A model generated the notes under the pieces. The model worked only from the letters and a program-made list of their open reading frames with translations, ran no database searches and was not told the origin of the DNA. A DNA stretch of 64,000 nt from Crambe crambe. Taxonomy: Eukaryota; Porifera; Demospongiae; Poecilosclerida; Crambeidae. A program made the position numbers and the translations under genes. This document shows, one piece after another, positions 261 to 45,100 of the stretch (its first letter is position 1; each line of letters begins with the position of its first letter). The stretch spans positions 3,814,501-3,878,500 of the forward strand of contig OZ004590.1 in assembly GCA_963924555.1 (NCBI GenBank). Direction: 5' to 3'.

Positions 261-3200
261 TCCACCTATGCATTAATTATTATTATAGCCTATATTTAAT
301 CACAGTGTTATAAATCAAGCAGGATTCACTTCCTCCCCTTGTACCCAGAGTCTCAGCCAATACTTTTAATCATAGTCATATAATCATAAGTGAGATGCAT
401 TAGTGCTTGATATTTTTAGTAAGCTTATCATTTTAGGGCATAGTGTTATTCCTGAAGCAAAGAGTACTTTCTTCAAAGGCCTATATAAATGTATACCTAT
501 ACTTACTGAAGTCTGGACCATTAGCATGCGTTGGTGCCTCATTTTATTAATGGCTCCTGCAATATCCACCATGTTCTCTTTCTTGACCTGCTCCAAGACA
601 TAGTCAATGCAGACAAAAGTACCAGTACGTCCAACACCAGCACTAAAAATTCCCACATGAAACATGAAATAAAAAATAAAAGCAAAGATCCCATTTGAAA
701 AGCTGTATAACCACAATACAGAAAGCTTTTAGCCATCATACATTACTGAATGTGTTTGCTTATTTTGAGTAACTTGAATATTTCACTCTGTAGTTGTGAT
801 GATACAATTAGAGTTTACTAAGGTTCAATGTCCTGCTGTGCCTGTGGCACTAGCCTAGGGTGCACAACCTTGTTCAGCTCCCAATTTGGTAAGGATTGAT
901 TGATTGATGGATAGATTCATTTTTTTAAAATGCATGTGCAATCTATATAGCTATGGCAGGATCGAATTAACTGATTGCAGGCCGAGCCAGCAAGAAAAGC
1001 ATGCAAACCGTTCTGCAATGAAACCTGTCTAATCAAGCCACCTTTGATGAGATAATGCACCTCAAGCTCTGATAAGGTCACACCATGTCTCAAAAGTCCA
1101 GCTATTTCAAAGAGATCTCCTCCCACACTTTTTTCTGGCCCACAGGTTGGTGGTGTCACATATTTCACTGTATCGTACAAAAATTAATGGCTGACTGACC
1201 TGCAGTGGACTAGGATTGGACCTTTCCGAGGGTTGTGGGTGGAGTTCACTCTCCTGTGAAAGCCCAGCATGGATGAGGCATAATCAGGGACTCCGTGATC
1301 TGGCCAGGCAGTGAAATGGAACTGCTTCAGCTTATGGGGACGGTTACTTCCTTCAAGCTGAAAACAAAATGCATCAGAGAGTAGCTATTAACTATACCAA
1401 ATTTATTTATGATGTAGTTATAATGATGTACGTAGTATTCCTGTATGTAGACTAGTTAGCTTATTGCATCAGTCAGTATTATTACAAGTAAGGGAAAAAT
1501 CATTTCCTGAAATGAAAAAAGATGTAGGGATGACCACTGCTCAAAAAAGTAAGGAACAAGGATGGAAATGGGATCAATCTTTGTGCTGTATATCCAGCCA
1601 ACAATCCCTACATATACATACATTACTACACTATAATCTGAAGCTACCCGACGTATATGTAGGGATTGTTGGCTGGATATACAGCACAAAGATTGATCCC
1701 ATTTCCATCCTTGTTCCTTACTTTTTTGAGCAGTGGTCATCCCTACATCTTTTTTCATTTCAGGAAATGATTTTTCCCTTACTTGTTCCTGATCTTTTTT
1801 CTTCTTTTTTATGGTTTTAGCTATGTATACAGGGGCGGATCCAGGAATATTTAGAAGGGGGGGTCAGTTGTATAGCATTAGGCATATCCACACGGGTAAG
1901 CGGGTACTCAATGCAGATGGCATTCCACATCTGCCACTGTGCTTGACCGTGTCCAACGAGTTAATTAATAAAATCATAAATTGTTATGCTAAAATCGTAT
2001 ACCTTTTGAAATACTTGGTCAGTGGTTTGATGGCTGCTGCTCTCTTCATCGCTACAAACTCAGAAAGTGCATGTGCGCATGCTCAGTTTACCCAATGGTC
2101 GTCATCGAAAGAAATTGTAATCGCTTTCCAATTGATCGCATGCACTAGAATAGCATACCAGCCCACGAATCAAGGTGTTGTGTCATTGTTGAGCTATACT
2201 TGGAGGTCGAAGATGCTGAAATAGAGTCTACCGGTAGATGGATTGGTGAATCTAAATCCCCGAGTTGATGCAGTAGTCTATCATCATTATCTAGAGCTAG
2301 CTAGATAGCTGAGTAATATTATAATTTCGAATAATTGGATATCAAATACATGCGCTGCGCATGCATATTATATAGTCTGGCCATAGATATAAGAGGTTTA
2401 CGGGATTGGAAACGGATCACGTGCTCTCGTTAGCAACTAACAACCGAGGCGCGTTGACAGCTGAATGACATAGCACTTTTGTCAAAGTTGCTGTTCTGAC
2501 AAGATCCGTGAGGTAAGACTTATGCCAATGATACTATAATACACTAGGGCATAGATTTACTGTATGAAATAAATTTTAGCTCAGATTTTCAAGTTTATTC
2601 CTACAAATACTACTGTGGTGGTTAATGGGACTGTAATCCCTCTCACGCTTGATGGAATCAATTGCTGTTGCTCATTTTCTGATCAAAAGGCATGTAAACT
2701 TTAGCTACATGGAATAGTAATGTTAGTTTTTGTATTAGCTGATGTATATTGTCTCTAGCATTTGCAAGTGGTGTTAAAACTGTAATCCCTCTCTCAAGAA
2801 ATAGATTAACAATATTGAAACTGTATTAGTAGTTTCAGGGAAAGGATAGAACAGTAAATGGAATTGGTGCATTCGTTTTCTATACAATAGTCATCCTATG
2901 GAGATGGCAAGCTTACTATATTTCCTCCCTAATATCCATAGGGTCCACAGGACAGCTGACTGAGCCGAATTCTTGAGATGGATGGTGTCAAAATCCAACA
3001 GCCAAAAGCTGGAAGTATTGCAATAATGCTGATGAGGGAGAACTGAGCAGAAACTGGCGGATAACTTTGGGGCAAAATTATCTAGCTATAATAATAATGA
3101 ATTTATGTCTAATTTTAATACCAAACGTCATTCTGGCCTTTCTTTCAAATCAATCACATACAATTAATGTATAATGAGCAATGATAGGTACTCATAGTTA

Positions 3201-6200
3201 TAATTACAAGGAAAAAAGTTATGAATAATTAATAACTTCCTTCCTCAGACTCTCCAACTTCAACTCTCTGACTCTTCACTTCTTCAATACCTTCCCCTTA
3301 GCTTACTTGTACTATTCTGTGAGCTGTAGGGGCAGAACATCACTTTAACTGCCTTGAAAGGAGTGAATATTGATCTCCTTTCACGGCCATTAATATAATT
3401 AATGCTGCATGCGCGTGCGCATCTGTCAACGCGCCTCGGTTGTGCAGTTCATTGGGCGTTTCCAATCCCGTAAAACCTCTTATATCTATGGTCTGGCGGC
3501 GCAGCCCCGAGCGCGCGCGAGCGCGAGGGTCTGGAATCACATAATACTTCGAGTTGTTCCTTTATCAGAAAACCTGATAAATGAATGAATATCATTAATT
3601 TACGTGTTATGAGTCATAATGAGTCACGACATAGAATGACCTATTGACCTTTCTGAACGTTATGGCAACTAACCCAACTAACCTGAAAGAAGCAGCTACC
3701 CATGCTGCAGCGAAGCTGGGATATCAAGGGTTGAAGGAAGAGCAACTAGAGGTTCCGATAGCATTCCTATCTGGGAGAGATGTTTTTGCCGTCCTTCCCA
3801 CAGGATTCGGGAAAAGCTTGTGCTATGCATGTCTTCCTCTTGCTTTTGAAGAGATAGAATCTTCACCAGCTGATCAGAAACCTATAGTGATTGTTGTGAG
3901 CCCATTAATTGTTATCATGAAAGATCAGGTAAATACTAGCTGTAAATGAGCAGATTAGTGCAGCCGGTTATGCAGTTTTTAATATTCATACTAAGCAAGT
4001 CAAAGATGTGTTTATCTCTCATGGCACTGCAGGTGGATAGCTTCAGCAAAAGAGGGCTTTCTGTTGCTTGTGTTACTGGAGGTCGTGAGGATACTTCAAT
4101 GAAGAAAGGGGTGCATGCTGGAGAGTATCAGTTGGTATTCATCACTCCAGAGTTATTGCTAGATAGCAATGAATGATCTTTGAGATTTTCCTTCCATTTC
4201 TTTACCTTGATGTCATGGTTGGAGCCCAGCTGACTTAAAGTACGAATTACTGTTGAATGTGACATGCAGATATTCAGTCTTTGAAGCCTTATATACACCT
4301 TTCAGAGTAATATTACATAGAGTATCATATCTTAATAAATGTAAGGTACACACCTGTTTTGAAGTATGCCCAGCATAAAGAATGATAGATATTATTTTTT
4401 GAATAAGGCTCATTCTGGAGTAGCGATGCTTGAGGAGAATAGAGGCACACATGCCAATGACAGCTTTTTCATTAGAACGTTTGGTTTTTGTTTTGGTGAG
4501 GCATTGAAGTAAATTAATAAAGATAGGAGCATATTTGTTTAATTCATTCAGAAGCATATCCCATTTAAAATCTTCCAATTTAGAACTCTGAAGAATTGAG
4601 TTTGATTCCAGTGAGACCATTGTTTTTATTTCTTTGCATATGATATTACCAAGGTAATTAAGAACAAACTGCCTGGTTTTGGGATCAGTAAAGCACTCTC
4701 TAACTATAGCATATTTGCTCCCCCTGGCAACAGCTTTACCAATCTTTTTCCTAGTTGGAGTCAACATATATACCTACACAAAAATATAATGTTATAGCTA
4801 ATTATGCTTTTCTTTTATTGCAAGATTCATACCCCAACAGCTGGAGAAGAGCTTGCAGAGGAATCAGTTGACAACATAACAGGACTGGGGTCAAGTTTGA
4901 TTCGCTTGGGTGTAGTGCTTTGTTCATCAAAATATTTCACTAAATTATTTTCTATTTTTTTCTGTAGGTCTGCATATCGCTCAAATGCCAAGAAGCAAGA
5001 TCTACACATGTACTCAAAGCCTTCACCAAGGTTGCAAGAATAGTCTAAATGGGTTACAAAAGCCTTCCAGAGAGAAAAGACATGTTGTGATTTGGAAGAA
5101 CGTAGCAGTCTCCTGTTTGTCTTCTTATCTGTGACATCATTGCCACAACCACAGCAACGGTCACACTGACTCATAATTAACTCACCACGACATCGACTAT
5201 CACATTGACCACGTGGTCATGACGTGACGTATATATTGTATCATTTCCGTCATGCTACGTATTCAATTAACTTTTGACGCGTGCGCGTAGGGAACAACTC
5301 GAAGTATTATGTGATACCAGACCCTCGCGCTTCGCGCTCGGGGCTGCGCCGCCAGACTACATATTATAGAAAAGATGGCTTCCTAATTGAATTAGTCGAG
5401 TGCTGTGCTCTCCTTTTTCATCCACTCTTTCGAGGATCAACGAGTAGAAAAGATCGTAGCTGGTAGAATTTGGAGTGGATTTATCCAGAAATCATAGCTG
5501 CAGCTTGAGTGGTTCGAGAGATATGGTTGTCTAAGAAGAAGAATAACAATAATAGAGAAGAAGAAGAATCCAGCGATTTACCTGGTTGCCGTATTTCTGA
5601 AACGGTAAGCTCCCTGGTCATGAAACTTGGTCTGCGCATTGTAGTAGGCTCTAGTAGGCTGGATAATCATTCACAGTAGCTTTTGTTAGGTCTAAGTGGG
5701 GGAACTAGAATTTCACTTTTGTATTAGTCTATAGGCGGCGCGCGCGGCCGTCCGAGTCATCCCTACATAGAGAGTGCTACCGCACTCTCTGATTATCAGG
5801 ACAGTGTACAAACCTGCTACAGAGGTCAGTGGCGGTGCCAGGGTACGTAGTTTCCATGGTTTCTGGAAACTGGAACTTTTTTTTCTAGAACCACCACTGG
5901 AGGTCATAATTATGCTTACAGAAACTTGCAAGATCCTGATGCAGTAATCAACAAAATTCTGACTTTCATTGATGGTGACCTTGAAGGGACCATAATCGGT
6001 GCTCCCAGTCTCTGGCCAATACTGCTCACACTTGCTCTTGTTTTTTTCAATCAAATTGGTCACCATGACAAGAGTGTGGGGCTTCTCCTGCCAGATCAAC
6101 CTCCAAAAATCAACAATTGTCTTGGGAATGGGTCCTGTAAAGTAATACATTCACTATTGCCACATACCATTTTTTATGCATCAGAGCTAATTATGTAATA

Positions 6201-9200
6201 CTTCAAAATCCAATATCAAATTCTCATGCTGATCATAAACAAGTTGTGCACACTGATCTGTACATAGCTACTAACATTATACATGGATGAATGGTCTTCC
6301 TCTTAGCTAATTGCACCTGGACAAGCAGTGGTTTACATCCAGCTGCTTTGGAGTAGTGTCAACTCAAGGTCACACATTCAAAGTTACTATAATAAGGATC
6401 AAGACCTCTCTATATACATTATACATAATTATTATAGTGCCAACTTAGCACTCAATATTTTTTTCTATGAACTTACCCTGAGTGACAATGAATTTCTTTT
6501 TAATGGAGTAACCCTATAATCAAAAAGTACATAGATTATCATGCCCATACTAATACCATACCAAAATAAGTATGAATATTTTATACCCACACTTTTTGTT
6601 AATTATAGATTGTGGTACACTCCATTGAATTCAATCATGATTTAATGTGCACTCCACTCACATCAATGTAGCATGCATTGATAAAATCTCCACTGCAGTC
6701 ATCATATCCAGGAATGGGATTCAACACTATCCTGTTGTGATCATCTAAAGGAAAAAATCATAGTTAGGATTTGCAATTCTAATTGTACCTAGCTATAACA
6801 AATGCAGCAATTCTGATCCATGTTACCAATGTTTATACTCACAGACAGTGACGTTTACAAATCTGTTCAGTTTTTTGTATTGAGCACTCATTCCCACACT
6901 TCTGGAATGATCATCACCACTATCTAGTGCCTACGGTAAACAAGTGTTTAGTAATAATGTTGTTGTGGGAAAAAATTTACCTTAAATGGTTACCTGGAAT
7001 TGATCCCTGAATCCTTGGTTCTGGTACTTGTGGTTTGTTGCCACATAGTCCCCAAACTCTGCCATAGGGATGGGATAAAAATCCATGACTTTTCTCTGCA
7101 CTTCTGAAACATCCTCTCCTTTTAAGGTTACAATCAACTGGACCTGCTTCACAGCACTACCAGCTGCATTCTTGGCCTCCATCTTATAAATCCCTCCATG
7201 CTTCAACCCTACAGTCGGAATGGAAATACTTCCATCTCCTTGGATTTCAATGGCGTAGTCAGATGTAAGTTTGTCCCCATTGAAGAACCAAGTGATCGAG
7301 GGGTTCGGTTTCCCACTCACAACCAGTTTAAAGAAGACTCCCTCACCCTCGATGGCATAGGTATCTTCAGGAAACTCGTCAATAAAAGGCTCTAGTGAAT
7401 CACAATGGACTTATTATGAAAATATAGAGTAGATAGTACTTGGTTACCTTTTCCCATTGTTTGTCTCCTTTTTGGCTGTTGAGCTGCAGTATAGTTAGCA
7501 TAATCTGCATTATATTTTTGTCTACTGCCACCAACACAATATCTGAAACAGAGCAATCATTTTCAAGCTTCTAGTTACAACAACAACAAAAACACTTACA
7601 TCTTTTTCCGAAATATAAACACCAGGATGACCACAAGAATGATGATAGCTATGATGATAATGGCTGCTATGATTCCACCAGCTATCGCACCTAATAAGAG
7701 TAAGGTGGGAATGCATAGCTAAGCATGTAACACAAAAAGGTGATAATAGTGCTGGATCAGTGACCTCGTGAACTTTTGTTCTTGAATCCTTGAAGCATGC
7801 ATGTGTTAAGGGTGGTCAGACATACCGCCCACACATGGTTGCTAAGGAAGCCAATCTCCAAAGCTACTAATGCTAAGGACTTGAAACTCCACATGACTAA
7901 GACACACTATAACACTACCACACATACCAAACATGAAGGAGAAAGGACAATTCTTACCCAAGATATGAAGCTTCATCACTCTCAAAGTATAAAAAACTAT
8001 TTCTCACCAAATACTTGAGTTCAGTGGCTGATTTTTGGTCAGCCATTTCTTATTACTATCCTTTATAAATTTACGTGAGCTTTTGTTGATATCTTCCTAT
8101 GGCAACATTAGTGGTGACTACATGGCTTGCTAAATGAAGTTTTAGAATAGGTATCGATAAATCCAAATGTAAATTTGTTCACCTATTCAGGTAATAGCTA
8201 TATGCAAATTTTAGGCCCAGTGCTATACTTCACTCCAGAGAAACAATGCATTTCATATACGTAGTCCCATTGAAATTCTATGTATCACACTGGAAATTTA
8301 TGGTTAGTAATTACATTTTTTGTGACCACATGGTTACTATGTCTGACCACCCTTAAACATTATTGATCAATGATAGGATGGTCTAAAGAAAAAAATCTAT
8401 GTCATCATTACCAGCTGATGAAGGAACTGTGGTATCGAATCGTTTCATTGATGTCCTGGATGCACCAAACCTTCTGGCTATGACTGTGATAATAAAGGTA
8501 CTTTGTTCTCTGAGGTTAGAGTATGATATCATTAGGGTGTCTCTGTCTGTGGTATTAGTCTTGTTCTGACATTCGCCACAAGGTTGGTTGTTACTATCCA
8601 ATATTTGCATAAGGGATACAGTGTAGTTATCTGCTAGTAGACTCCCCTCAGGCTGGGTGAAAGATATGGTGACTGATATCCCAGTCACTGAAGAAATTGC
8701 TATAGTAGGCATCACGAAATCTGAACGATATCAATAAAATTAATATTGTGACGAATGTGGACAGAAGATGATGGTAAAGTCTAGCTATTACCTTTCACAG
8801 TGACTTCCTCTGTCATTATCTCACTAGGATAGTGCTGGGAAAGGGCCCTCATACGAATATCATACACACCTGGCTGTTGCATTATGGTGAGTGAAGAGGA
8901 AGTAACACTAATACCATCACTGAAATCTGCTGAATTAATTGTTATCTGGTACCCCATGTTAGGTGGAGGAGATGGTGGAGTCCAGGAGACTAATACAGTG
9001 CCAATCCCATTCTGGCTGACGTTAAGATTAGTAGGAGTTGTACCTAAGATGAACACATAAATAATTAATTATTGAGCAAACTTTTTAAAAATCAACCCTC
9101 TAAAATAATGTAGCTTAGCTAATTATAGTCTGTTCTCAAACCATGTAATTTCCAGACATGAACACTGTGAATAACTTTTTATTAGCTACTGCACATGATT

Positions 9201-10749
9201 GTGATGATACTGAAACTGCAATGTACACCATGCATACCTTTTGTAATATTAGTGATATCGGAGGTGAGAGTGTTGAGTGTGGCTCTATTGGAGACAGAGT
9301 ACTGGTACACTCCAGGTAGTATCCCAGTCACAGTCAGTGTGCTCCGATAGCGACTTTTGTCATATGCACTCGGGTCAGTTACATTATTTACTCCAATGGA
9401 AATGCTGAATGAGCCACCATTAGTGATGGGTGCACCATTTCTTGTCCAAGTAGAAGTTTCAGGAGGACCTCCTTCAGTATCACCAGCCAGAGTGAAGGAT
9501 GGGGAGGCAGCCAGAAATAAAGCTGTTATCATTTTTACTCCAGTTATTCTAACAACACCACGTACTGAAGAAAATAAATCATTTCAGAGAATGCATGTAA
9601 TTATACTCTGGTAAATGGGAAATATGTTACTAATTTTATATTTGCACTATAAAAAAACATGAAACTTAATTACCATGATAGTGTAAGGCTAATTACAAGT
9701 ATAGCTATACATCTATACATTTCCGTGAAATGAAAAAAATGAGATGAGTAGATGATGAAGATGGTACCAATCCGCTAGCTACCTGTACAGTTTTTACAGC
9801 AAGACTTACAAGTTGAACTTATCTACCATGCTATACTTTATAGTCTCAGGCACTAAGCCACTAACTGCTCAGTAGGGCTGAGTTATACTAAAACTGACCT
9901 TTTCTGGACGAAAATAACAAGAGGCTTTGCCTGACTCATACTTTTCTAGCAAGCTTACGATCGCTCGATTGAGCGTATGCACTTAGCACGCGCTTGCGCT
10001 TAAAATTATTCATTTTGAAAGGATAAACCACCTGAACCACCCCTGGCTACGCCCATGATGACCATTGCTCAAAAAAGTAAAGAAACAAGGTTAGGGATGA
10101 AGGATGGAATCATTATTCTGTAGCTATAATCCGCCAACAATCCCTACATATACGTTGTGTAGCTTCAGATAATAGTGCGTATAGCTATGTGGCTGGATAT
10201 ACAGAACAAAGATTGATTCCATTTCCATCCTTCATCCCTAACCTTGTTTCCTTGAGCAATGGTCATCCCTACATTTTTTTTTCTTTTTCATTTCACAGAA
10301 ATGTTTTCCCCTTAGCTACTTGTTCCTGGTCTTTTTTTCCCCTTTCTTTTATGGTTTTATGTATAGATTTCCTTCTTCTATGTGTATGCAGGGATAGATG
10401 AAAGAAGAATAGCATAGCAGGCTAATGATTATTTATCAGTGAGTCAAGGCTTGACTCACTGATATTGATAGATGGATTGGTGAATCTAAAATCCCCTAGT
10501 TGATAGAGTAGTCTATGATCTAGCACACACATATAGAGCTGGAGCTATAGCATAGCTAGCTGAGTATTATTATAATTTCAAATAGTACATGCGCACGTGT
10601 ATTATTGAAAAAATGGCTTCCAATAATTAAGTTAGTCAAGTACTATGCTCCATTTTCTTCAACTCTTTAGAGGATCGAAGAGTAGAAAAGATCGTAGCTG
10701 GTAGATTTGGAGCGGATGTAGCTTGAGTGATTTGCGAGATATTATTGTT

Positions 10750-10780
<31 letters not shown>

Positions 10781-13075
10781 ATGATGATGATGAAGAAGAA
10801 GAAGAAGAAGAATAGAAGAATCCAGCAACTTACCTGCTTGCAATATTTCTGAAACGGTAAGCTCCCTAGTCCCGAACCTGGTTTGCACTTTGTAGTAGGC
10901 TGTAGTAGGCTGGAAATCATTCATGTGCAATATAGCAAAATGGCTATATTGCACATGTGCTACTTGCATACAAAGGCACATATAATTATTATGTATACAG
11001 ATTATTGATCAATTTCATATTATTGTAAACACAAATAACTCACCTTTTCTACCACTTCTTTTATAAAATCCCACAGGAACTGCTGTTGAAATATCACCAT
11101 TCCGTCGACAAGTAAACAATCCATTATCAACATCAAATCTTGAAATATCCTCATTTCTCCCATCATTGACAATTTGAGCCATGAGGTTTCCACTTGGTAT
11201 TATCTGATAGATTTGCCTCATCTCTCTATTTTTAGCAAAGTCTGTCATTGCACCATTTCCCGGCCACCAAGCAATAGGGCCAACTGTAGAGTTGCAGAGT
11301 AGACCACCAGGACCATTAGGATTACTGAGTGTTGGTGGAGGGTTATACGTAACAGTTTCGACCTCATCATGATATATCAGTGTAGGAATGCCTGTGATGT
11401 TATTTCCTTTCCAAGTAACAGTCACTAGAGAGAGAATCATCAGTTATAATAATTCAGTGAGTGAGTGCAGTGAGTGAGCTGGTCATGACTCTATTAGTGA
11501 GTGCAGTAGCAACTCTGTATGTATAGGAATGACAATGGTGGATAGGTGGTTAGTTATCTTGTTTTGAATGTGCATGATGTTATAATTAATATGTAGTCAC
11601 TCACGTGCCCACGGGCTAGCGTCTGTGCACAAACCATATCTGTATAGGGGGCATTTTATTTCGAGAAGCCTGTAAAGAGTGTGCCTATTATCCTTTTAAT
11701 AAAATGATGTGAAACTATTCCTCAAAGTACAAGAAACGATAGTTATCAGCTAGCTAATTCTGACAAAGGGTTGTAGTGGTAAGTGAAAATAATAGCAGTT
11801 ATTTTGTTTAAAGCTACCATTCTCTTAACTGGCAGCGGTCTCATACAAATGCCAGCCTTTTAAACTTACAGCTACGTAAATGAAGGACATGCCTTCAAGT
11901 CCTTTAAGATAGGAATGGCCCTTGTTCAAATAAGCTATAGAGTGATTGAATTTCTTGCTATAGGTACAGGTAGCTAGCTTCGGTATGGAACCTCTGGTAC
12001 TTAACTTAGTTCAGAGCAATTATTGTAGCCTAAAATAATTATAAGTCAGTGTCAGGTAAAGTCAGTGTCAGGTACTTATCCAAGTTCTATAGAACTAGAA
12101 TCACCAAGTAAATATTGATGAAGGCAGTCATGGTATCGGCAGCTGAGGGCTAGAAGGAACCATTTATTGATGTATCGTAGCTGCAGCTATTACATTCTGA
12201 AGCTCTGTGGCTAACTTATCTAGAAATAAAATCACCCGAAAAAATTGTGTGCGGTTTGGCTACTGCACAGTTATGGAAGTAGCTATATTATTTTTATGCA
12301 CTCACATAATTGATTTGATGTGATAAGTAAAGGTCGTCCATAGATAATAATTATGGACTATACATACACGGGATAGGAAACCGCACATAGTAACATAATT
12401 AACCTGTGGTCTTCGAGTGACAGTTAGAAAGACTTATGTGTCAGTTTCACTGGAATATCGTCCACGGTATTATGTAAAACTAAAGTGTTGTCCAAGCAAG
12501 CATCTAAAATGCTGTGTACATGCATTGCTTAAATTGCTAGAAAGTGTCACAACAACTTCATGAAGGAAAATATTTCATATTCTACTAGTAAAAACCGAGA
12601 TGGGAAGAATGAAGCTCTAGAGTGCATATAAGAGCAGAAACATTATCTATTTGGTATGCAAATATATATATATTGTATAAGCTAGCTAGCTGTAAAAAAA
12701 TAATTTTTTCTTGACAGGCTGCTGTACTATCCATAGACATAGGTACATTTCCTTATGATGCAACACCTTGGATGCACTGCTTTCTATGATAATCAATCAT
12801 AGTGTTACCAGTAGCCTGTATTTGATTTTATTTGATTGATCATTCCCACAATTCAGGGTTGCCCCTGCTTCCTATACCAGTGCAGTCTTGCAATTTAGAG
12901 ATAGCTAAACATGCTAATTTAGCTAAAGCTAGCTAGCTAACCAGCTATCTAGCTAGCTAGTTTGAGACTCACATGGTTGACTTTGTACAGATATGAAAAT
13001 GAAGACAAGCTTTAATATCCACAGCACGTGTGCACCGCTACTATTGGACAGTTGGTTCTTCAGCTTAAACAACAT
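1..13075 (-). CDS. Receptor-type tyrosine phosphatase A (3' end beyond window)
   Basis: Cell-surface receptor predicted to dephosphorylate phosphotyrosine. Fourteen exons read in frame on the minus strand: 13075-12973, 11424-11044, 9564-9238, 9043-8792, 8720-8412, 7690-7600, 7542-7448, 7391-6994, 6930-6843, 6744-6662, 6513-6477, 6134-5920, 1357-1200, 642-507 (891 codons). The order is signal peptide (starts MLFKLKNQ, ends VQSQP), V-like Ig (LLCNST...IAWW...FTCR), second Ig-like, two FN3, transmembrane helix ([18 protein letters not shown] then RKK), a short Tyr-rich linker, an I-set Ig without cysteines, then PTP domain D1. D1 shows [16 protein letters not shown] and [10 protein letters not shown], with the P-loop split between the last two visible exons. 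The rest of D1 and all of D2 lie left of the window. Transposons swell the intron 1358-5919 to 4.6 kb, against about 0.4-0.6 kb in B and C. The ATG is chosen because it opens a hydrophobic leader shared with B and C. Confidence 0.88.
1484..1785. mobile_element. Long near-perfect hairpin (fold-back MITE)
   Basis: Two arms of about 134 bp (about 1484-1617 and 1652-1785) are almost perfect reverse complements around a spacer of about 35 bp. The arms include GTAGGGATGACCACTGCTC and its reverse complement. A diverged second copy lies at 10058-10330, also in an intron of the same gene. The open frames on both strands are by-products of the symmetry. It is probably a non-autonomous fold-back element; no target duplication was identified. 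Confidence 0.75.
2382..3490. mobile_element. 1.1-kb TIR element, copy 1, 7-bp TSD
   Basis: It starts CATAGATATAAGAGGTTTAC and ends with the reverse complement GTAAAACCTCTTATATCTATG. Flanking 7-bp repeats are GTCTGGC at 2375-2381 and 3491-3497. It was inserted into the left terminal repeat of the element 2373-5359. It is nearly identical to copy 2 (52555-53655), implying recent movement. No coding frame of note is present, so it is non-autonomous. Confidence 0.88.
3662..4176 (+). pseudogene. RecQ-like helicase N-terminal fragment carried by transposon
   Basis: Two exons, 3662-3928 and 4033-4176, join in phase (GT donor, AG acceptor) into about 136 residues ending at a stop. The Walker A motif [11 protein letters not shown], motif Ia-like [12 protein letters not shown] and motif Ib-like VFITPELLL are those of RecQ-family DNA helicases, which are 3'-5' unwinding enzymes. 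The frame stops before the DEAH box and lacks the second RecA lobe, RQC and HRDC, so it cannot be an active helicase. An in-frame ATG six codons upstream (3644) is an alternative start. It lies within the 2373-5359 element, so it is probably captured or element-borne rather than a host gene. Confidence 0.75.
4213..5174 (-). CDS. Cys-rich, transposon-borne uncharacterised protein
   Basis: Two exons read in phase on the minus strand: 5174-4833 and 4773-4213, about 300 residues. The N-terminal part has spaced cysteines ([11 protein letters not shown], then [20 protein letters not shown]), like a ZAD or other zinc-binding module followed by a short helix. A Ser-rich linker follows, then a helical region starting [19 protein letters not shown]. 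That combination is familiar from repeated uncharacterised proteins in cnidarian, sponge and fish genomes, most likely of mobile-element origin. It may be truncated at its C-terminus. It runs opposite to the RecQ-like fragment inside the same terminal repeats. Its function is not known; DNA binding is only an inference from the cysteines. Confidence 0.6.
5827..5899. mobile_element. hAT-like MITE remnant in A
   Basis: It starts CAGTGGCGGTGCCAGG and ends TTCTAGAACCACCACTG, typical hAT-type ends. Most of the interior is gone compared with the 405-bp copy at the same intron position in C. The same insertion is present in all three long paralogs, so it predates their duplication. Confidence 0.6.
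10058..10920. repeat. Second hairpin copy plus associated repeat, with (GAA)n
   Basis: A diverged fold-back copy (10058-10330, arms around GATGACCATTGCTC / GAGCAATGGTCATC) is followed by the same tail as at 1811-2372 and 5369-5690. A GAA/GAT-rich microsatellite occupies 10747-10811. The stretch fills the intron between the V-like Ig and second Ig exons of RPTP-A. Confidence 0.6.
10923..10958. repeat. Short perfect hairpin
   Basis: ATGTGCAATATAGC and GCTATATTGCACAT are perfect inverted arms around a few bases, at the border of the repeat in the RPTP-A intron. Confidence 0.7.
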
Positions 13076-23300: not shown

Positions 23301-26300
23301 GATGGGACCTTTCCGAGGGTTGAAGGTGGAGTTCACTCTCCTGTGAAAGCCCAGCATGGGTGAGGCATAATCAGGGACTCCGTGATCTGGCCAGGCAGTG
23401 AAGTGAAACTGCTTCAGCTTATGGGGACGGTTACTTCCTTCAAGCTGAAAACAATCAATGCATCAGAGAGTAGATATTAACTATATCATAATAATCTATA
23501 GTGTAGTTACACAGTGGAGTAAGTTTACATTGCCCAAATGAAGTTGGCGAGGCTTAGTAAGCCACAAGCGTGTGCACGTAAAAAGTTGATTGATCGTGAA
23601 CTTGAGCCTGATACTTGAAGCTAAATTCTAAGTCCTGTAGCTGTAAAAACTATGCAGGTACACATCAAGTGGGTGCAGTTTATAGAAAAGGTGTGGTTCG
23701 GCAAAAATGGGTGTGGCAAGGCAAATACTTTTCCGCATGCTATGCATGCAGATATTATATAACTGGATACTAGTGAACTTTTTTTTCTAGAACCGCCACT
23801 GGAGGTCATATAATTATGCTTACAGAAACTTGTAAGATCCTGATGCAGTAATCAGCAAAATTCTGACTTTCAGTGATGGTGACCTTGAAGGGACCATAAT
23901 CAATGTTCCCAGTCTCCGGCCAATACTGTTCACACTTGCTCTTGTTTTTTTCAATCAAATTGGTCACCATGACAACAGTGGTGGGCTTCTCCTGCCAGAT
24001 CAACCTCCAAAAATCAACAATTTTCTTGGGAATAGGTCCTGTGAAGTATACACTATTGCTACATATAGTTTCATGGCCATAGCTAATTATGTATTCAATG
24101 CAATACTTCAAAATCCAGATCATCACACTCACACAGTCAAATTCTCATGCTGATCACTGCTACCTGTGGAGCAGCCAATAACTGATAACTAGCTACAGTA
24201 TGACTCTAGCCACATTATTACATGGATGAATGATAATTATAGGTCACATTATTAGGTTATTTCCTCTTAATTGCACCTGGATAAGCAGTGGTTTACATCC
24301 AGCTGCTTTGGAGTAGTGTCAACTCAAGGTCGAAGTTGCTAACCTCTCTATACATTACGCATATTATAATGCTAACTTAGCACTAATGTTAGAGGCTTAA
24401 TTTTAGCTGCTCAGTATTTTTGCTATGAACTTACCCTGAGTGGCAATGAATTTCTTTTTAATGGAGTAACCCTATCATCAAAAAGTAGTATAGATTATCA
24501 TGCCCATACTAATACCATACCATAATAAGTATAGGATAAAATAGCGGGTTATACATTCATATAGCTCATGATTTTGTGCTTATCCCCGAGGCAAAGCCAA
24601 GGGATAACTGGAAATGAGCAACAATTCAGCTATAGCTAGGTTAGGCCTGCATGGTCTTAGTTTCTGCTTTAGACCAGCAGTCTAGCTACTGCTTCTCATA
24701 AAACTAGAGTGGTCACGGCTAAAAAGTGGTTTCGAACTAGAGTCAGAGAGAAACTAGTTTTTCGCCTCCTGGTGCTACAGAGCAAAGAACAACAATATAG
24801 TCACATTTCCAAGCGTATTAAAGCTGGAAAGCCTATTTAGTCTGTTGGATTCTCCATGCATGAAGTGTTTGGCCAACTATCTATAAAACAACAACAACGA
24901 CAACATAAAAATAATGCGAATATGAGATAGCCCATGGACAAAAGTGTGGGTTATTTTATAGCTACAACAGCAAAAAAAAAGGAATATTTTATACCCACAC
25001 TTTCTGTCTAGTGTATACTGTGGTATAAGTAGCTATAATAGTATACACTCCATTGAATTCATTCACAATCAAAATGTGCACTCCACTCACATCAATGTAG
25101 CATGCATTGATAAAATCTCCACTGCAGTCATCATATCCAGGAATGGGATTCAACACTATCCTGTTGTGATCATCTAAAGGAAAATTATAGTTAGGATTTG
25201 CAATACTTAGCTATAACAAATGCAGCAATTCTGATCCATTCTAAGACTTATTGATGTTTATACTTACAGACTGTGATGTTTGCAAATCTGTTCAGTTTTT
25301 TGTATTGAGCACTCATTCCCACACTTTTGGAATGATCATCACCACTATCTAGTGCCTACAATCAATACAAAAGGCAATCCAGTAATGTTGCTGTGGAAAA
25401 AGTTACTTTAAATTGTTACCTGAAATTCATCCCTGAATCCTTGGTTCTGGTGCTTGTGGTTTACAGCCACATAGTCCCCGAACTCTGCCATAGGGATGGG
25501 ATGAAACTCCATGACTTTTCTCTCCACTTCTGGAACATCTAAGGTTACTGTCAACTGGACCTGCTTCACAGCACTCCCAGCTGCATTCTTGGCCTCCATC
25601 TTATAAATCCCTCCATGCTTCAACTCTACAGTCGGGATGGAAATACTTCCATCTCCTTGGATTTCAATAGCATAGTCAGATGTAAGTTTGTCTCCATCAA
25701 AGAACCAGGTGATCGAGGGATTCGGTTTCCCACTCACAACCACTTTAAAGAAGACTCCCTCACCCTCAATGGCATAGGTATCTTCAGGAAACTCGTCAAT
25801 AAAAGGCTCTAGTGAAACACAATTTTATTATGAAAATTTACAGGCACAACATTAGAAAACTGATAATAAGAATATTATAACATCATGATGATTTCGTGTT
25901 TTATGTACTCTTGAGTCTCTCCTTATAGTTGCTAAATATAATTGGCGAGTGAAGCGAGCTTACCCCCTATTCATGCAAATTGAGATTTCAATACAGTACG
26001 TACGTCACATTTAATTTAATACGCATGCACATACATTTGTTTGACCTTTGACCCCACAAATGAAACATCCCCAAAACACTTAGCAACAAACAGCTTGCTT
26101 TCTACAGCATTTCGTCATAGAGGTGCTAAGTGGATTATGGTAAGCATTAGCCTTCTGTGTATGCAGCTGTTCATCCTGACAGCAATATCTTAGCCTAAGA
26201 AGTTAAAGTACTTCACAAACTGCTTCACTTGCCAATTGAATGTTACCCTAGTTATATTACTGCTCTGCATACTGTCACCTGATTGGTAACTTACATACGT

Positions 26301-29300
26301 ACATAGCTATAGTGATACATAGTACTTGGTTACCTTTTCCCATTGTTTGTCTCCTTTTTGGCAGTGGAGCTGCAGTATAGTTAGTATAATCTCCATTATA
26401 TTTTTGTCGGCTGCCACCAACACAATGTCTGAAATAGAGCAAGCTTCTAGTTAAAAAAAACAACAAAAAACAAAAACAAAACAAGAACACTTGCATCTTT
26501 TTCCGAAATATGAACACCAGGATGACCACAAGAATGATGATGATAATGGCTGCTATGATTCCACCAGCTATCGCACCTAAGGGTAAGGGGTAAGGGTGGG
26601 AATGCATAGCTAAGCATGTAACTAAGAAGATGATAATAATAACAATTATTGTTTGTGGTGGAAACTAATCTGCCACAGATACCAGTGACCTTCACCAATC
26701 ACCTCTGGTTTTTTTTTTGTTTTTTTTTTGAATCCTTGAAGCATGCATGTGGTCAATGATAGGGTGCATGGTCTTAATCAAAATTCTGGGGGGAAATTTG
26801 TCATCATTTCATTGTGACACTTACCAGCTGCTGGTGGTGAAACTGTACTGTCACGGGTAACGAATTGTTCCATTGATGTTCTGGACTCACCAAACCTTCC
26901 GGCTGTGACTGTGACATTAAAAGTACTTAGTTCACTGAGGTTAGAGTATGAAATCATTGTGGTGTCTCTGTCGGTGGTATTAGTCCTGTTCTGACATTCA
27001 TCACACATTTGGTTGCTACTGTTCAATATTTGCATAAGAATTACAGTGTAGTTATCTGCTAGTAGACTCCCCTTAGGCTGGGTGAAAGATATGGTGACTG
27101 ATGTCCTAGTCACTGAAGGAAATGTTATAGTAGGCATCAAGAAATCTAATATCAATAATTAAAAGATTGTGATGAATGCATGGATGCATGGACAGATGAT
27201 GGTAAATTTTGCATAGCTATTACCTTTCACGGTGATATTCACTGGTCCCACTATCTCACTAGGCAATTGCTGGGAAAGGGCCCTCATACGGATACTGTGC
27301 ACACCTGGCTCTAGTTCCATTATGGTGTGCGAAGTTGCAGAGGAAGCAACAATACCAGCACTGAAATTTGTTGAATTAATTGTTATCTGGTACCCCATAC
27401 TAGGTGGAGGGGATGGTGCAGTCCAGGAAACTAACACAGTGACAATCCCACTCTGGCTGATGTTAAGATCAGTAGGAGTAGTCGTACCTAAGATGAACAC
27501 ATACATAATTCTTACTATAAAATCATTAGAATAGTGTGAGCAAACTTTAAAATTCTCTAAATTTTAATCCGGCTGTAGCTAATTATAGTCTGTTGTGATT
27601 TCTGGATTATGATCACTGTGAATAATAGCTAGTGTGCATGAGTGTGATGCTGTAAAGTACGTCATGTGTACAAGAGGTTATACTACCATTTATATTGATA
27701 TTGGAGGTGAGATTGTTGTTAGTGGCTCTATTGGAGACAGAGTACTGGTACACTCCAGGTAGTATCCCAGTCACAGTCAGTGTGCTCCGATAGCGACTAT
27801 TGTTATATGCAATCGGGTCAGTCACTCCATTTACTCCAATGGAAATGCTGAATGAGCCACCATTAGTGATGGGTGTACCATTTCTTATCCAAGTATATGT
27901 TTCAGGAGGACCATTTTCAGTATCCCCAGCCAGAGTGAAGGATGGGGAGGTGTCCATGAATGAAGATGTTGTGATACTCACTACAGGTCTTGTAATAACA
28001 CCATCACGTACTGTAGAACAAATCATTTCAGAGAATGCATGTGGATTGTATACCAAAACCAAAATTAATAAGCACAGGGCTAATAATTATGCTTAATAAT
28101 GGGAATAATAGGGATTCACTGGAATAGCAGCATAATAGGCTAAAAAATAGAATAATAGGCTGCAGTCATTAGCTACTATAACCTCACTCCCTTGCCTGCA
28201 CACGGGTGTTCTTGAGTGCTAGCATTGCGAGTTTTTTTGCTTCCTTTTGCAAAATTACATCTTAAATGCTATGCACATTCAAAATAATACTCTTTCAGGA
28301 CATTTTGATATATTGTTGAGAATAATAGGCTACCATGAAAAAGTCTGCAGGATCGCCGCTGAATAGAAAAAAGAGCATTAAATTTTTAGCTGCATGCCTA
28401 CAATCAAACGTCTGGAAATACCTGGAAATTTGTTGCTAATTTATATATGCACCATGAACATTAGTTAGAAAGCTGTAAGGCCAATGTGACTAAATACCTT
28501 GTTTCCTGTCCTTCACTTGCTCAAATTGGATGAGGGAGGGAAGGAGGCTATTTTTTATTATTTATTATGCTAGGGCGATGTGCAATATTTGAAGCAAGCG
28601 AGCTTTTAGACTCCAACTTTGTTTCACGACCCTTAAAATTTTGCTGTTGGAGGTTCCAACCAAGCAGCTACATACTTAGGAAGGTGTAATTCGTACTACT
28701 AGATAAATCACCATGCAATAATTGCTGTAGAAATCAATCAAGCTTGCTTAGCAGATGTAATAAAGGAGTATGCAAATTAGCATGCAGGCGGTAGACAGGA
28801 AACAATGAATTTAATCACGTTGGCCTAAGTATGAAAAGAAATAAATTGTAAACATGAATTGCCTAACCTAAACTGCCATATAAAAGGGCAATCTTAGCCT
28901 TGTGGGCCAGACATATTAACTGAGGGAAGAGAGAAGGTCTCATACCTACATAATACATTGCACCAACATAGTCATTCAAAACCTCCCAGTTGTTGGGGTC
29001 ATGATTTTGATGCTTAATTGTCTCACTAAGTCATATTGAAAAGTGTAAAGACCAATTTACTCACCTGTTGTACCATTTCTATAATAAAATCCCACAGGAA
29101 TTGCTGTTGAAATGTCACCATTGCTTCGACAAGTAAATAATCCATTATGAAAAGAAAATCCCGAAAGATTCATCTCATTACTTCTCCCATCACGAACAAT
29201 TTGGGCCGTGAGGTTTTCACTTGGTATTATCTGGTAGATTTGCCTCACACGTATATTAGTATCAAAGGATGATGTACCATCTCCTGCCCACCAAGCAATA

Positions 29301-39146: not shown

Positions 39147-42100
39147 TTACACATTTTGAAAGTTGGCGTAGGTGTCAAATGAATCCAAGAAGGTAAGAGT
39201 GGCATCAAATAGTGTCTTGTAGTTTGCCTGTGTGTGATAGAATGCAATCAGCTATTTCCCTCCTCCCTGGTCATGCACCCCTGCTTCTGCATCAGTGAAA
39301 GTGTACCGAACTCACCAGAGTAGGCACAGCTCCAGGTTTCTGTATGCGGAGAGCTTTGACCACTTGGAAGACATCCACCACTCCCTCTGTCTTGCATCGA
39401 TCAATGATGGTGGCTATGGCACAGAACATCCCACTCCTGGTCACTGTGTCACTATTATACAAAAAAGGTATCATAAAATAGTGGGGAGTTACACAGGAAT
39501 GATATCAGCTAGCTATACAGCCATCATTCAAAGCATCCGGACACCTTTGTTCAAGCTTTTTTTCCAGACTATAAATTGTTATGTTATGGTTATCTTGTGT
39601 TGTTTAAAAAATCTTCATACGTAGCTATGGTGGTAGCACTAATGTAGCTTGTGTGCCTGTGCAAAGCATTCTCAAAAAATTAATGTCATTAGGCATGTAT
39701 TAATCACTATAAGCAAGGTACAGATAACCAGGTTCCCTTATCATCCCAGATAGCATTAGCTTAAAGTAGCTACATACTTAGCCAGTAGCTATTTATGCAT
39801 TGGGTGAACTGATCATTAACTGTATGTTGTAGCTAGCTACCTGCAGTGTATAAATACAGGTCTGTTTCCAGTTCTCCTCTGAATCTTTTCCACTTCATCG
39901 ATTACATCCACAACACTCCTGAGGTTGGAACATCGTCCAGATGGATCCCAACAGGTGATGTGGAATTGATTCACTTGATGAGCCTCTTGAGACTTGAATG
40001 GGAGAGGTGTGCATGCACATTGGGTCAATACATGGCCATATTAACTTTGTACCTTATGTTCTAAAATACTGAGTGTCCTGATGGTGAATCCTTCTAAAAC
40101 CTCCTCATCAATCAAGTCCACTGTGTACTCCCCAAACTGACTGAGTTGTCCAGAGGCTGGCCAGTACTTAACGCTACTCTCCTATGAAGTTTATGAACTA
40201 TAATAAAGCTATTCAAAACAATTTTCTCACCATAGCTGATGGTACAACACACAATGACTCTGAATAGCTAACCTTCCCACCCCTCCAAAAATAAATAATA
40301 CATGGTAAACCCTGTCTTATGGTAAATATGCCTTACTTTTCCATTCTCAATAACATCAGAGAGCATGACCACAGCCCCACACTTCCTATCATGGAGGGTC
40401 TTCAACATGTTCCTAACAGTAGATGCCATGGGTCCCTCGGCTATGATGTATGCCTTATGCTCTTTATAGCCCTAGAATGATGATACTGCTATTCCTATTG
40501 CTATCATATTTCATGCATTAGTGAGTTAGTTAGCTAAATGTATGTAATTCGCTCTGTATCTATTGCAAAAAATATACGGCATGCATACAAAAAATCACGC
40601 AGGGTATGAAATCTCTAGTTTCATCATGGAATAAATCCAAGTTTGGATCCCATTGTGTTATGTCAATGTCCTTGTGAGCTGTCATACTTACCGGTGCAAA
40701 CACAGCATGAATGTAGTCAGGCACTTCTCCTTTTATGATAATACGATATTTATCAGCTGTAATAATATATGAAGTACATTTATGATTACAAAGCCCTGAT
40801 TCTGTAATTATACTCAATAGCTATACATACGTAGTACATTGTCTAGCAAAGGCACCTTCATACAAAGCTCATTGTAAGTAGACGAGGATGCCAATCACAG
40901 ATATAGGTATTAAACTCTACCTTCTACCAATACAAATCTAGTTGGTAAAGGGTTGACATATCTGATAATTCATATGTACACAGGATAGCTAATACATAGT
41001 GAAAATACTGACATCATAGCTCTGTAGTTTATACCCTCTAACAAGAAGCTTAAGTGATTACAGTATTAGCTCACAGGGTAAGAAATCATTCCTTCGATTC
41101 TGATCAGAATTCTTCTTAGCTACAGAACAGACAACTTCATTGGCTTTAGGGGACATTTTTTCCAGAACCTACACAGATATGAAGCATATTAGTTAATTCT
41201 TGTGTGCGTACCTCATTGTTTTAGCTACAACCTGAAACCCCATGACCAGGGCAAACTGTAGTTTATTCTGGTGATCGAACATTGTAGTGTATTCTAGTGC
41301 ACATGACCACTTTGGGTAAACTAAACATGTAGTTTATTGGTGATGACCATTGGTAAATTAAGTATTGAGTTTATTCTGGTGATGACCATTGGGTAAACTA
41401 AGCATTGCAGTGATGAACATAGATAAACTGAGCATTGCCATGCAGTATATTCTGGTGATGACCATTAACATTGCTGCTCTCTCCCCACCCACATTTCCCT
41501 AGTAGCTTGCTAGCTATAGTAAATACTCCACAGTTACTATAACATCAGCATAATAAACATAAAACCTTTCTAACTAGTATTTTTTCATGTTTGGATTCCT
41601 TATCATAGCATTTTGGTAAAGTGAATTATTATAACATAGCTAAACATGTACATGTTGATGCTACATGCAGTCATGATTTTGGATCATTTCAACATTCCAT
41701 GTAAACAATGGTATAGTAATTTTTATAGTTGAGACAATTCTCATAGACTTAGCTATTACTTCCCAAAGATAACTCCATCTTCAAAATTAAGACCATGGAT
41801 TATTAGTGGATCACCTTTAATCCATGATGCTATAAATTGTCTTTATGAATAGCTAATGTGATTATTATGTGATCATAGTCATGGGAATCGTGAGGGCACT
41901 GGGTTGGTTGATACTTATTAGACTAGAAATTCCATATTAAGCACTCACATTAAACTGCAATCTGAACTTTGTTACACCAGCAGATGAATCAACCTCATCA
42001 TACTTGCTTATTTTGCTGCGGAGGTTGGCAGCAGAGATCTGGGTGTTTCCACACAAAACAGACTCCAATATAGCATCGTATAGGAATATGAGTTGCTCCT

Positions 42101-45100
42101 GTGATAACAAGAAGGAGAGTGAATGCTGCATAAAAACAATCCCTAGCTTAATTAAATTTTTTCATTAATACAGCTTACACGCAGCTACTAGTTTTTGTAC
42201 GCGATTTTCATTAACTACTGAGCAGCAGCTGGAGTCTGAAGTGCAAACTAATACAATTTTGCCTATACAGTATCTTGTTCACCAACATGGCAGCTGTGCA
42301 TGATAATATCCGGATTAGGTTAAAAATTTACAGAAATGCTGAGTCAACTGCAAGGGGTCTATATGCCAAATGATGCATGGGCTCATCCCAAGTCAATAAT
42401 TATTATAGCCTATATTTTTAATCACAGTGTTATAAATCAAGCAGGATTCACCTCCTTGCCCTGAGCCCCTTGCAGAGACTCAGCCAATACTTTTAATAAA
42501 TAAAGGAATGTGGATTTACTCATAATCATATGTTATTATAAGTGAGATGCATAAGTGCTTGATAAGTTTTTTTAGTAAGCTTATCATTTTAGGCTAAAAT
42601 TAATAAGCATAGTGTTATTCTCGGAAGCACAGATGTTCTTAAAACTCCTAAAGAGTACTTTCTTCAAAAACCTATATAAATGTACAGCTACTTACTGAAG
42701 TCTGAACCATTAGCATGCGTTGGTGCCTCATTTTATTAATGGCTCCTGCAATATCCACCATGTTCTCTTTCTTGACTTGCTCCAGGACATAGTCAATGCA
42801 GATAAAAGTACCAGTACGTCCAACACCAGCACTACAAATTCGCACATGAAACATGAAATAAAAATAAAACCGAAGATCCCATTTGAAAAGCTCTATAACC
42901 ACAATACGGAAAGCTTTTATCCATCATGCATTACTGAATGTGTTTGCTTATTTTGAGTAACTTGAATATTTCACTCTGTAGTTGTGATGATAGCTACAAC
43001 TAGTGTTCATTAAGGGTTCAATGCCCTGCTGTAATAAGCAGCCTTGGTGCACAACCTTGTTCAGCTCCCAATTTGGTAAGGATCGATCGATCCATTGATA
43101 GATTATTATTTTTAAATGCATGTGCAATCTATATCTGGCAGGATCAAATTAGCTGATTACCTTGGAGGCGGAGCTAGCAAGAAAAACATGCATTCAAGTC
43201 ACCAAGAGACCGTTCTCTTTATGTTATTATGGCTTCATAAATGTAAGTACAAAATACATATGCTAGCAATAAGTGTCAAATAAGCACATACATTAGTAGT
43301 TGTTTCAAAATTTTCTGTTATATAATAGTGAATCCCAACCAATTACTTAACCCCTTGCTGAGCATGCACAGTGGGGCAATGAAACCTGTCTAATCAAGCC
43401 ACCCTTTGATGAGACAATGCACCTCAAGCTCTAATAAGGCCACACCATGTCTCAAAATCCAGCTATTTCAAAGAGACCTCCTCCGCCCACACTTTTTTTC
43501 TGGCCCACAGGTGGGTGGGGTCACAGTATTTCACTGTATCGTACAAAAATTATAATGGCTAACTGACCTGCAGTGGACTAGGATGGGACCCTTCCGAGGG
43601 TTGTGGGTGGAGTTCACTCTCCTGTGAAAGCCCAGCATGGGTGAGGCATAATCAGGGACTCCGTGATCTGGCCAGGCAGTGAAGTGGAACTGCTTCAGCT
43701 TGTGGGGACGATTACTTCCTTCAAGCTGAAAACAATCAATGCATCAGAGAGTAGCTATTAACTATGATGTGGTATTCCTGTATGCATGTGGTTAGCTTAT
43801 TTGATCAGTCAGTATATTATTGTCAGAACAGTGTACAAAACCTGCTACAGAGATCAGTGGCGGTGCCAGGATAAGTAGTTTCCATGGTTTCTGGAAACTA
43901 GTCAACTAACCAGACCTGAATCACCCAGTTGCAGTAGCCAGCTAGCTAGCAAATTTACATTACCCAAACGAAAAGTTGGAGAGGCTTAGTAAGCCACAAG
44001 CACGTGCATGTAAAAAGTTGATTGATCATGACCAGTCCATGCTAACTTGAAGTGTGCACAGTTAAATTCTAAGTCTTGCTATAAAAACTGTGCAGGTAGC
44101 TGTAAAAACTGTGCAGGTAACATCAAGTGGGTGCAGTTTATAGAAAAGGTGTGGTTCGGCAAAAATGGGTGTGGCAAGGCAAATAATTTTCCACATGCTA
44201 TGCATGCGGATATTATATAACTGGATACTAGTGAACTTTTTTTTCTAGAACTGCCACTGGTGGTCATATAATTACGCTTACAGAAACTTGCAAGATCCTG
44301 ATGCAGTAATCAGCAAAATTCTGACTTTCAGTTATGGTGACCTTAAAGGGACCATGATCGGTGCTCCCAGTCTCCGGCCAATACTGCTCACACTTGCTCT
44401 TGTTTTTTTCAATCAAATTGGTCACCATGACAATAGTGGGGGGCTTCTCCTGCCAGATCAACCTCCAAAAATCAACAATTCTCTTGGGAATAGGTCCTGT
44501 GAAGTAATACATTCACTATTGCTACATACCATTTTTTATGCATAGTTCATGGTCATAATTATGCATATTCAAAATCCAATATCAACAGGATCATCACATT
44601 CACACAATCGAATTCTCATGCTGATCACAAACAAGTTGACAATGTGCTACCTGTGGAGCAGCCAATAATAACTACGAGCACACTATACTAATTTGATCTG
44701 TAGCTATTAACATTAGATGAATGGTTACATTATTAGTGGTTTTTCCTCTTAATTGCACCTGGACAAGCAGTGGTTTACATCCAGCTGCTTTGGAGCAGTG
44801 TCAACTCATTCAAAGTTGCTATAATAAGGAAACCTCTCTATATACATTATGCATAATATCATAATGCCAACTTAGCACTCTAGTTAGAGGCTTAATTTTG
44901 TAGCTGCTCAGTATTTTTGCTATGAACTTACCCTGAGTGGCAATGAACTTCTTTTTAATGGAGTAACCCTATAATCAAAAAGTACATAGATTATTGTGCC
45001 CAAGCATACATACCATAATAAGTATAGGATAAATCAGTGGGTTATGCACTCATATAAAGTTTATGGTTATCCCTGAGGCGAAGCCAAGGGATAACTGGAA

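Follow-up and report, generated by a model that had tools for sequence, protein, structure and literature searches.

Four receptor-type protein tyrosine phosphatase (RPTP) genes of the sponge Crambe crambe very probably encode an immunoglobulin (Ig) domain on the cytosolic side of the membrane, between the transmembrane (TM) segment and the phosphatase (PTP) domain. The window, by which we mean the whole stretch of 64,000 nucleotides that was analyzed (C13:3814501-3878500), has three of these genes (A, B, C) on its minus strand and the fourth (D) on its plus strand. This predicted layout is deduced from the genomic sequence and from splice models of A-C; the domain order, the sharing of one exon by Ig and wedge, the family-wide conservation and the pattern of selection can likewise be read from sequence, and from there we infer a docking or autoregulatory function for the cytosolic Ig. 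A plausible scenario, which taken whole we consider reasonably probable, is that these are LAR-type single-pass receptors in which a variable ectodomain is combined with a constant cytosolic Ig, the latter serving as a docking module tied to one phosphatase pathway. The exons concerned are the following.

11040-11428, minus strand: N-terminal ectodomain exon of gene A, Ig-like by eye only (C...W...C), no Pfam match
9252-9520, minus strand: second ectodomain Ig-like exon of gene A, cysteine-free; weak Pfam Ig_3 match (E 0.02), Ig fold unconfirmed
8799-9044 and 8404-8715, minus strand: two ectodomain FN3-like exons of gene A, limits approximate; the first scores 27.4 bits with Pfam fn3, the second 15.7, which is below the cut-off
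7600-7690, minus strand: TM exon of gene A, phase 1-2, Kyte-Doolittle score 3.86
7448-7542, minus strand: juxtamembrane (JM) exon of gene A, phase 2-1, C-terminal end KRRQTMGK
6994-7391, minus strand: predicted cytosolic I-set Ig (about 90 residues), short linker and first RPTP wedge helix of gene A, phases 1-0; Pfam I-set 55.5 bits
6844-6930, minus strand: second wedge exon of gene A, from the exon model
5900-6748, minus strand: first exons of the first PTP domain (D1) of gene A, limits approximate
about 1200-1372 and about 540-695, minus strand: WPD exon and P-loop exon of gene A, limits approximate
26495-26576, minus strand: TM exon of gene B, from the splice model, with a GC donor
26334-26428, minus strand: JM exon of gene B, from the splice model
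25420-25808, minus strand: predicted cytosolic Ig and wedge exon of gene B; Pfam I-set 60.5 bits
47401-47656 (5' edge not fixed) and 47030-47338, minus strand: membrane-proximal FN3 exons of gene C, from the splice model and Pfam
46732-46822, minus strand: TM exon of gene C, from the splice model
46592-46674, minus strand: JM exon of gene C, from the splice model
46009-46406, minus strand: predicted cytosolic Ig and wedge exon of gene C; Pfam I-set 56.6 bits, 53.5 in the spliced protein
41949-45934, minus strand: second wedge exon and PTP D1 exons of gene C; Y_phosphatase 269 bits, best PDB match PTPRS
39295-41168, minus strand: exons of the second PTP domain (D2) of gene C, from Pfam on single exons, with WDP read by eye
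about 55109-55214, plus strand: TM exon of gene D, start counted by hand on the sequence
56596-57275, plus strand: predicted cytosolic Ig, long linker and wedge helix of gene D in one exon; Pfam I-set 65.6 bits
57343-57426, plus strand: second wedge exon of gene D, ending ...LNRFPK, 3' end not fixed
58270-58488, plus strand: PTP D1 exon of gene D, from a PTP match

In A, B and C the splice phases are compatible (TM 1-2, JM 2-1, Ig 1-0) and leave a single open frame from TM into Ig; the gene C model starts at the last two FN3 domains, continues across TM, JM, Ig, wedge and D1, and ends where D2 begins. For gene D the agreement with A-C is in the exon phases only, read by eye: its TM exon ends in phase 2 and its Ig exon begins in phase 1. 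All four genes have a basic end on the TM exon, which lies 5' of the Ig exon on the same strand, and in gene C a basic stretch follows the TM, with 31 residues between the end of the TM and the Ig. The exon coordinates put forward in the original prediction turned out, when the exon edges were rechecked, to be exact to the base in A-D. It had also placed the Ig after the TM helix and immediately before the PTP juxtamembrane segment; the position is confirmed in A-D, but immediate adjacency applies to A-C and not to D, where 112 residues separate Ig from the start of the wedge (16 in gene A). The gene D linker (56870-57275) contains similar SRIS...GNF stretches, perhaps internal repeats, and the TM exon donor of gene B at 26495 is GC (AT followed by GCAAGT), genes A and C using GT.

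Since the Ig and the first wedge helix occupy one uninterrupted open exon in A-D, a membrane span between Ig and wedge is impossible, as had been claimed, and the Ig should share the phosphatase's side of the membrane. One way around this conclusion would be for the TM and JM exons to be skipped, so that the Ig ended up in a soluble or secreted product, or for the Ig exon to belong to another transcript. We regard this as highly improbable. The TM and JM exon pair is indeed symmetric in A-C (phase 1 in, phase 1 out) and its omission keeps the frame, but Ig and wedge share an exon, hence the Ig travels with the phosphatase, and a secreted phosphatase has no evident use. As the Ig exon itself is in phase 1-0, it cannot be skipped in frame in A-C. 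Also weighing against skipping is the finding, among the relatives of these genes, of a TM-like segment 5' of the Ig exon at 56 of 57 loci, even in copies (L051, L050, gene D and the C9 genes) that are only 33-47% identical to gene A.

The relatives were found by using the Ig-wedge exon of gene B as a query against the sponge's own 143-Mb genome, which gave at least 99 matches at E <=0.01 (at most the 150 best candidates were scored in this and in the PTP search, and PTP figures refer to the matches listed). We studied 61 Ig exon places, which form clusters at C13:3.58-3.88 Mb and C9:2.6-3.4 Mb, with single loci on C12, C13, C15 and C18; short second pieces and a 40-residue C5 fragment were left out of the family set. 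Among the PTP matches listed, 52/61 Ig exons have a same-strand PTP exon no more than 5 kb away on the 3' side, and none has one on the 5' side; the other nine have no PTP 3' among those matches and may pair with unlisted PTP exons. Four partial C9 Ig matches (near 3296625, 3328153, 3389631 and 3406646) were not fetched, which leaves 57 loci. A TM-like segment was defined as a hydrophobic segment within 1.5 kb 5' of the Ig exon, followed by Lys, Arg or Trp, low-complexity runs being discarded; the 56 loci refer to a threshold of 2.4, with 51 at 2.8 and 46 at 3.0. The 57th locus is most likely L055, whose segment scores 3.63 without a following Lys, Arg or Trp. For the 41 loci with both flanks, a threshold of 2.4 gave a TM-like segment 5' in 40 and 3' in three, against five and three on the opposite strand. 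A second span between Ig and PTP is rejected on these data as well, since a 3' hydrophobic stretch occurs in 0/41 loci at 2.8 and in the three at 2.4 (L011, L013 and L051). When low-complexity runs are kept, poly-Leu/Val runs appear 3' of the Ig at L010 (gene C), inside the intron after the first D1 exon.

The TM-Ig-PTP arrangement, originally described in four genes, thus extends to dozens of paralogues in this genome. Conservation of the arrangement in so many copies, together with strong purifying selection on the Ig, shows that the Ig exon is not mis-joined. A chance or pseudogene origin of the exon was also considered and is ruled out by the family counts together with a dN/dS of 0.07. 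Some copies seem incomplete or damaged: L052 contains a stop, and L056, L071 and L072 are short. At two loci (L046 and L065), some 380 bases upstream of the Ig exon, an unrelated exon (DGLILSALIFSTISFVVLLINTTLA...) has seemingly taken the place of the usual TM exon. In the distant gene L055 (C12:237739-241139), an I-set with Cys at the B-strand position and Val at the F-strand position is preceded by a TM-like segment and followed by a PTP exon; judging from this gene, the layout may predate the tandem clusters.

With regard to the identity of the Ig itself, Pfam I-set scores exceed the cut-off of 23.7 bits in all four genes. AlphaFold2 (AF2) run on the gene A Ig exon with 50 rows gave a mean pLDDT of 85.9, with 91-97 per ten-residue block over the Ig, values below 50 in the linker (residues 96-104) and a helix at 110-132. 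Foldseek gave matches to Ig structures at E 1.3e-9 to 5.3e-8 (among 50 listed rows), in keeping with an Ig sandwich fold. The top match was MLCK1 IgCam3, followed by a mix of cytosolic (titin M10/obscurin-like 1, myotilin, telokin) and extracellular (MuSK, Robo1) domains; a profile search ranked titin first, then Robo2 and DSCAM, in ranks that add up the multiple Ig domains of a chain. Extracellular Igs (MuSK, Robo, DSCAM, contactins) score about as well as cytosolic ones by both methods, and the fold alone therefore cannot tell the side of the membrane.

A B-F disulfide is usual in I-sets and absent in many cytosolic I-sets. Neither canonical cysteine is present in any of 50 aligned copies of the Ig studied here. 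The B-strand position is Leu in A and Val in B, C and D; the F-strand position is Met in A, B and C and Phe in D (Y-M-F), so that replacement of both cysteines stands for all four genes while the reported Met is right for A, B and C but not for D. Cysteines elsewhere in the Ig occur in 4/50 copies (one each in three, four in L050), and 26/50 have an N-x-S/T motif, points that weigh against the reading favored here. The count covers 50 of the 57 loci, leaving out L063 (whose Ig protein equals that of L062), L071, L072, L052 (stop), L053, L054 and L055; L055 keeps the B-strand cysteine, as described, and the other six have no Cys at those of the two positions that could be read, partly by eye (L054 stops before the F strand). 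As a control we took other I-sets of the same genome, of which 21/23 domains have both cysteines and two (L079 and L085) have one; these come from 20 stretches hand-picked from the best 150 I-set matches, read in their longest open reading frames (ORFs) and partly by eye, with the second L074 domain omitted. Cysteine loss is thus nearly specific to the cytosolic Ig among I-sets here, a contrast to which we attach no probability as the Ig rows are related by descent. It had been argued that the loss fits a reducing cytosol. The two are consistent, but the loss does not amount to proof, being weakened as such by the cysteine-free Ig-like ectodomain exon of the same genes (9252-9520 in gene A, Ig fold unconfirmed). 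For that exon AF2 from 5 sequences gave a pLDDT of 57.8, and a hybrid-query sequence match to the PDB was marginal (best E 0.001).

The spliced gene C protein scores 34.8 (fn3), 53.5 (I-set) and 269 bits (Y_phosphatase) in Pfam, and a membrane span is followed by a PTP domain with HCX5R and WPD motifs, as in receptor PTPs. Both the HCX5R P-loop signature and WPDHG are intact, and D1 appears catalytically intact and active-looking. The best PDB match to wedge plus D1 is PTPRS (whole-chain E 7.7e-139; 281 bits for its D1, aligned from query residue 2), with PTPRF (LAR) also among the best; by sequence the wedge and D1 are LAR/PTPRS-like. Two of the three D2 exons scanned singly in gene C match Y_phosphatase (28.0 and 33.2 bits) and the third does not; the WPD loop of D2 reads WDP by eye. 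A tandem D1-D2 is indicated for gene C by these exons and for gene B by its similarity to C; in gene A no D2 was seen within the window, the edge of which its D1 reaches.

The R2A RPTPs (LAR/PTPRF, PTPRS, PTPRD) likewise combine an Ig-like and FN3 ectodomain, one span, a wedge and an active-looking D1, with tandem PTP domains as in gene C. A D1 and wedge of LAR/PTPRS type are present here, as judged from the best PDB matches (PTPRS and PTPRF) and from an alignment that starts in the wedge; R2A receptors, however, have three N-terminal Igs and then FN3, all Igs being extracellular. In the present family an Ig lies in the cytosol, and the ectodomain exons identified comprise two Ig-like and two FN3-like ones. 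We do not class the family as R2A. That the Igs of known RPTPs lie outside the cell, as the original prediction stated, agrees with the available text of PMC10815196 for the mammalian R2A and R2B subgroups, from which the present genes differ by an extra Ig between TM and wedge. The same text gives the R2B RPTPs (PTPRM, PTPRK, PTPRT, PTPRU) an added, cadherin-like segment between TM and D1; this is a likeness in position, but in that text the segment is not described as an Ig. R2B receptors also have a MAM domain, unlike the exons scanned here, which cover part of the ectodomain.

The cytosolic I-sets of titin, MLCK/telokin, obscurin-like 1, myotilin and palladin resemble the present domain in fold, profile and predicted location, and are often protein-docking modules. 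Their carriers differ in being soluble scaffolds or kinases, not membrane receptors as here. Among sponge proteins, the Ig-TIR receptors also join an Ig-bearing receptor to a cytosolic signaling domain early in animals, but their Igs are extracellular and their tail is TIR, according to the available text of PMC6208332, in place of a cytosolic Ig and PTP. A sponge RPTP of R3 type has been reported, with no mention of a cytosolic Ig in the accessible part of PMC5336234. A word search of the open-access literature, the coverage of which is incomplete, found no description of a TM-Ig-PTP protein, which leaves the original prediction's statement that no such family is known uncontradicted, and we provisionally regard this as a new receptor layout built of known RPTP and Ig parts.

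The pattern of selection also changes between the two sides of the membrane. Among A, B and C the cytosolic Ig has a dN/dS of 0.07 (0.01-0.19; dS 0.21), and the four ectodomain exons have 1.15, 0.92, 1.05 and 0.67 (pooled 0.97, 0.78-1.23; dS 0.17). The second wedge and D1 exons give 0.29 (0.16-0.51; dS 0.09), an interval that overlaps slightly with that of the Ig, and the linker with the first wedge helix 0.25 (0.08-0.72), a weaker constraint than the Ig's; the TM (0.73) and JM (1.15) exons are so short, and their intervals so wide, that no judgment is possible. These are Nei-Gojobori counts over approximate exon limits, and the bootstrap limits are approximate too, positions being indexed by each pair's first sequence. 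The ectodomain is thus nearly free to change and the cytosolic Ig is constrained at least as much as the enzyme. Since dS is similar in ectodomain and Ig, gene conversion of the Ig alone is an unlikely cause of the contrast; one D1 exon of A/B/C, with a dS of 0, may have undergone conversion. In the C9 cluster, for 13 loci with a nearby FN3 exon, dN/dS was 0.75 in the membrane-proximal FN3 and 0.26 in the Ig, the Ig being lower in 71 of 77 defined pairs (78 in all, one undefined). Across the wider family the median was 0.30 for the Ig (341 pairs with dS 0.05-1) and 0.42 for linker plus wedge (380 pairs). All these comparisons are within one genome and the paralogue pairs are not independent. 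An ectodomain dN/dS near 1 among A, B and C (8404-11428 in gene A and its equivalents) is unusual for conserved receptors.

What the constrained Ig might do can be considered in this light. Igs are commonly shuffled modules, and the domain could be a passive spacer or folding aid left behind by exon shuffling. An extra cytosolic segment ahead of D1 is known from the R2B RPTPs (available text of PMC10815196), but the dN/dS of 0.07 in A/B/C speaks against a mere spacer, as do six residues (S44, D45, Y46, E49, H65 and K70) each conserved in 45-49 of 50 Ig rows; in our judgment their conservation would exceed that of the general I-set core, and we think a passive role improbable.

A second possibility is that the Ig works as an autoregulatory lid, packing on wedge or D1 either within its own chain or on a dimer mate, gating the active site and shifted by receptor clustering. 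RPTPs are controlled through the wedge, a 16-residue linker connects the gene A Ig to the wedge within one exon, and the Ig is at least as conserved as D1 by dN/dS in A/B/C. A fixed Ig-D1 geometry is, however, difficult to reconcile with the low-confidence linker of gene A in AF2 (residues 96-104), and gene D retains its Ig behind a 112-residue linker. We therefore prefer to see the Ig as a docking module on a tether; a rigid lid we rate as rather unlikely, even though docking as the main role of the Ig is itself an evenly balanced call.

For a docking module the scheme would be as follows: (i) each protein would be a single-pass LAR-type RPTP with a rapidly evolving Ig-like and FN3 ectodomain and one membrane span; (ii) some 30 juxtamembrane residues rich in Lys and Arg would link the span to a cytosolic I-set Ig without the disulfide pair; (iii) wedge, active-looking D1 and, in gene C, D2 would follow; (iv) the Ig would bind a putative common cytosolic partner or pair with the Igs of neighboring clustered receptors, much as cytosolic I-sets of muscle scaffolds pair Ig-to-Ig; and (v) it would thereby keep the enzyme at the site of contact, irrespective of what the ectodomain recognizes. 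We infer that the Ig is a constant module, a common socket that would combine variable recognition outside with constant output inside. If true, an animal receptor family has recruited Igs for signaling inside the cell, with dN/dS falling steeply from the outer to the inner side of the membrane, and these genes make up a set of inhibitory-type receptors that can be tested in work on recognition systems.

The ectodomain exons also lead beyond the phosphatases. By our own count, fragments included, the N-terminal ectodomain exon has 79 genome matches, 69 of them on C13:3.13-4.53 Mb, and the second has 73, with 66 in the same region; 54 of the 69 N-terminal-exon matches lie outside 3.58-3.88 Mb. 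PTP matches on C13, among those listed, occur only around 3.59-3.88, 4.63 and 6.09 Mb. Two FN3-like exons and a TM-like segment were seen in one gene that shares the ectodomain exon (L096); its tail is short and basic, and inspection by eye of 3 kb revealed no PTP. A second such gene (L095) has no TM by the listing rule. As a lead, from the loci sampled (L093, L094, L095 and L096), C13 3.13-4.53 Mb may be a paired-receptor-like cluster with mixed tails.

Allorecognition and paired-receptor families (Botryllus fuhc/FcoR, cnidarian clusters and NK receptors) resemble this arrangement, in the available text of PMC12065747, in their tandem multigene clusters; in the sponge the ectodomain dN/dS is about 1, and genes of the cluster have ectodomain exons in common, some of these genes seemingly lacking the phosphatase tail. 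The likeness is drawn from the genes of one assembly alone and homology is not claimed; the mechanism of invertebrate allorecognition is given as unresolved in that text. A tentative extension, which we would not expect to hold in full, is a phosphatase-based system of self/non-self type, with some 60-70 tandem genes having fast-evolving shared ectodomain exons and a minority having a constant inhibitory tail (cytosolic Ig and LAR-type phosphatase) in which the Ig would act as a shared adaptor socket.

A few other features of the window may be recorded. At 1413-1863, ORFs overlapping on both strands encode a near-identical peptide, which looks like an inverted repeat and perhaps a small transposon, and an ORF piece at 10081-10401 is similar to it. 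Within the span of the gene A PTP exons, a plus-strand ORF (3635-3949) has helicase motif-I-like letters and is presumably RecQ-like. On the minus strand, the ORF at 61126-61689 is one that we take to resemble an acyl-CoA thioesterase.
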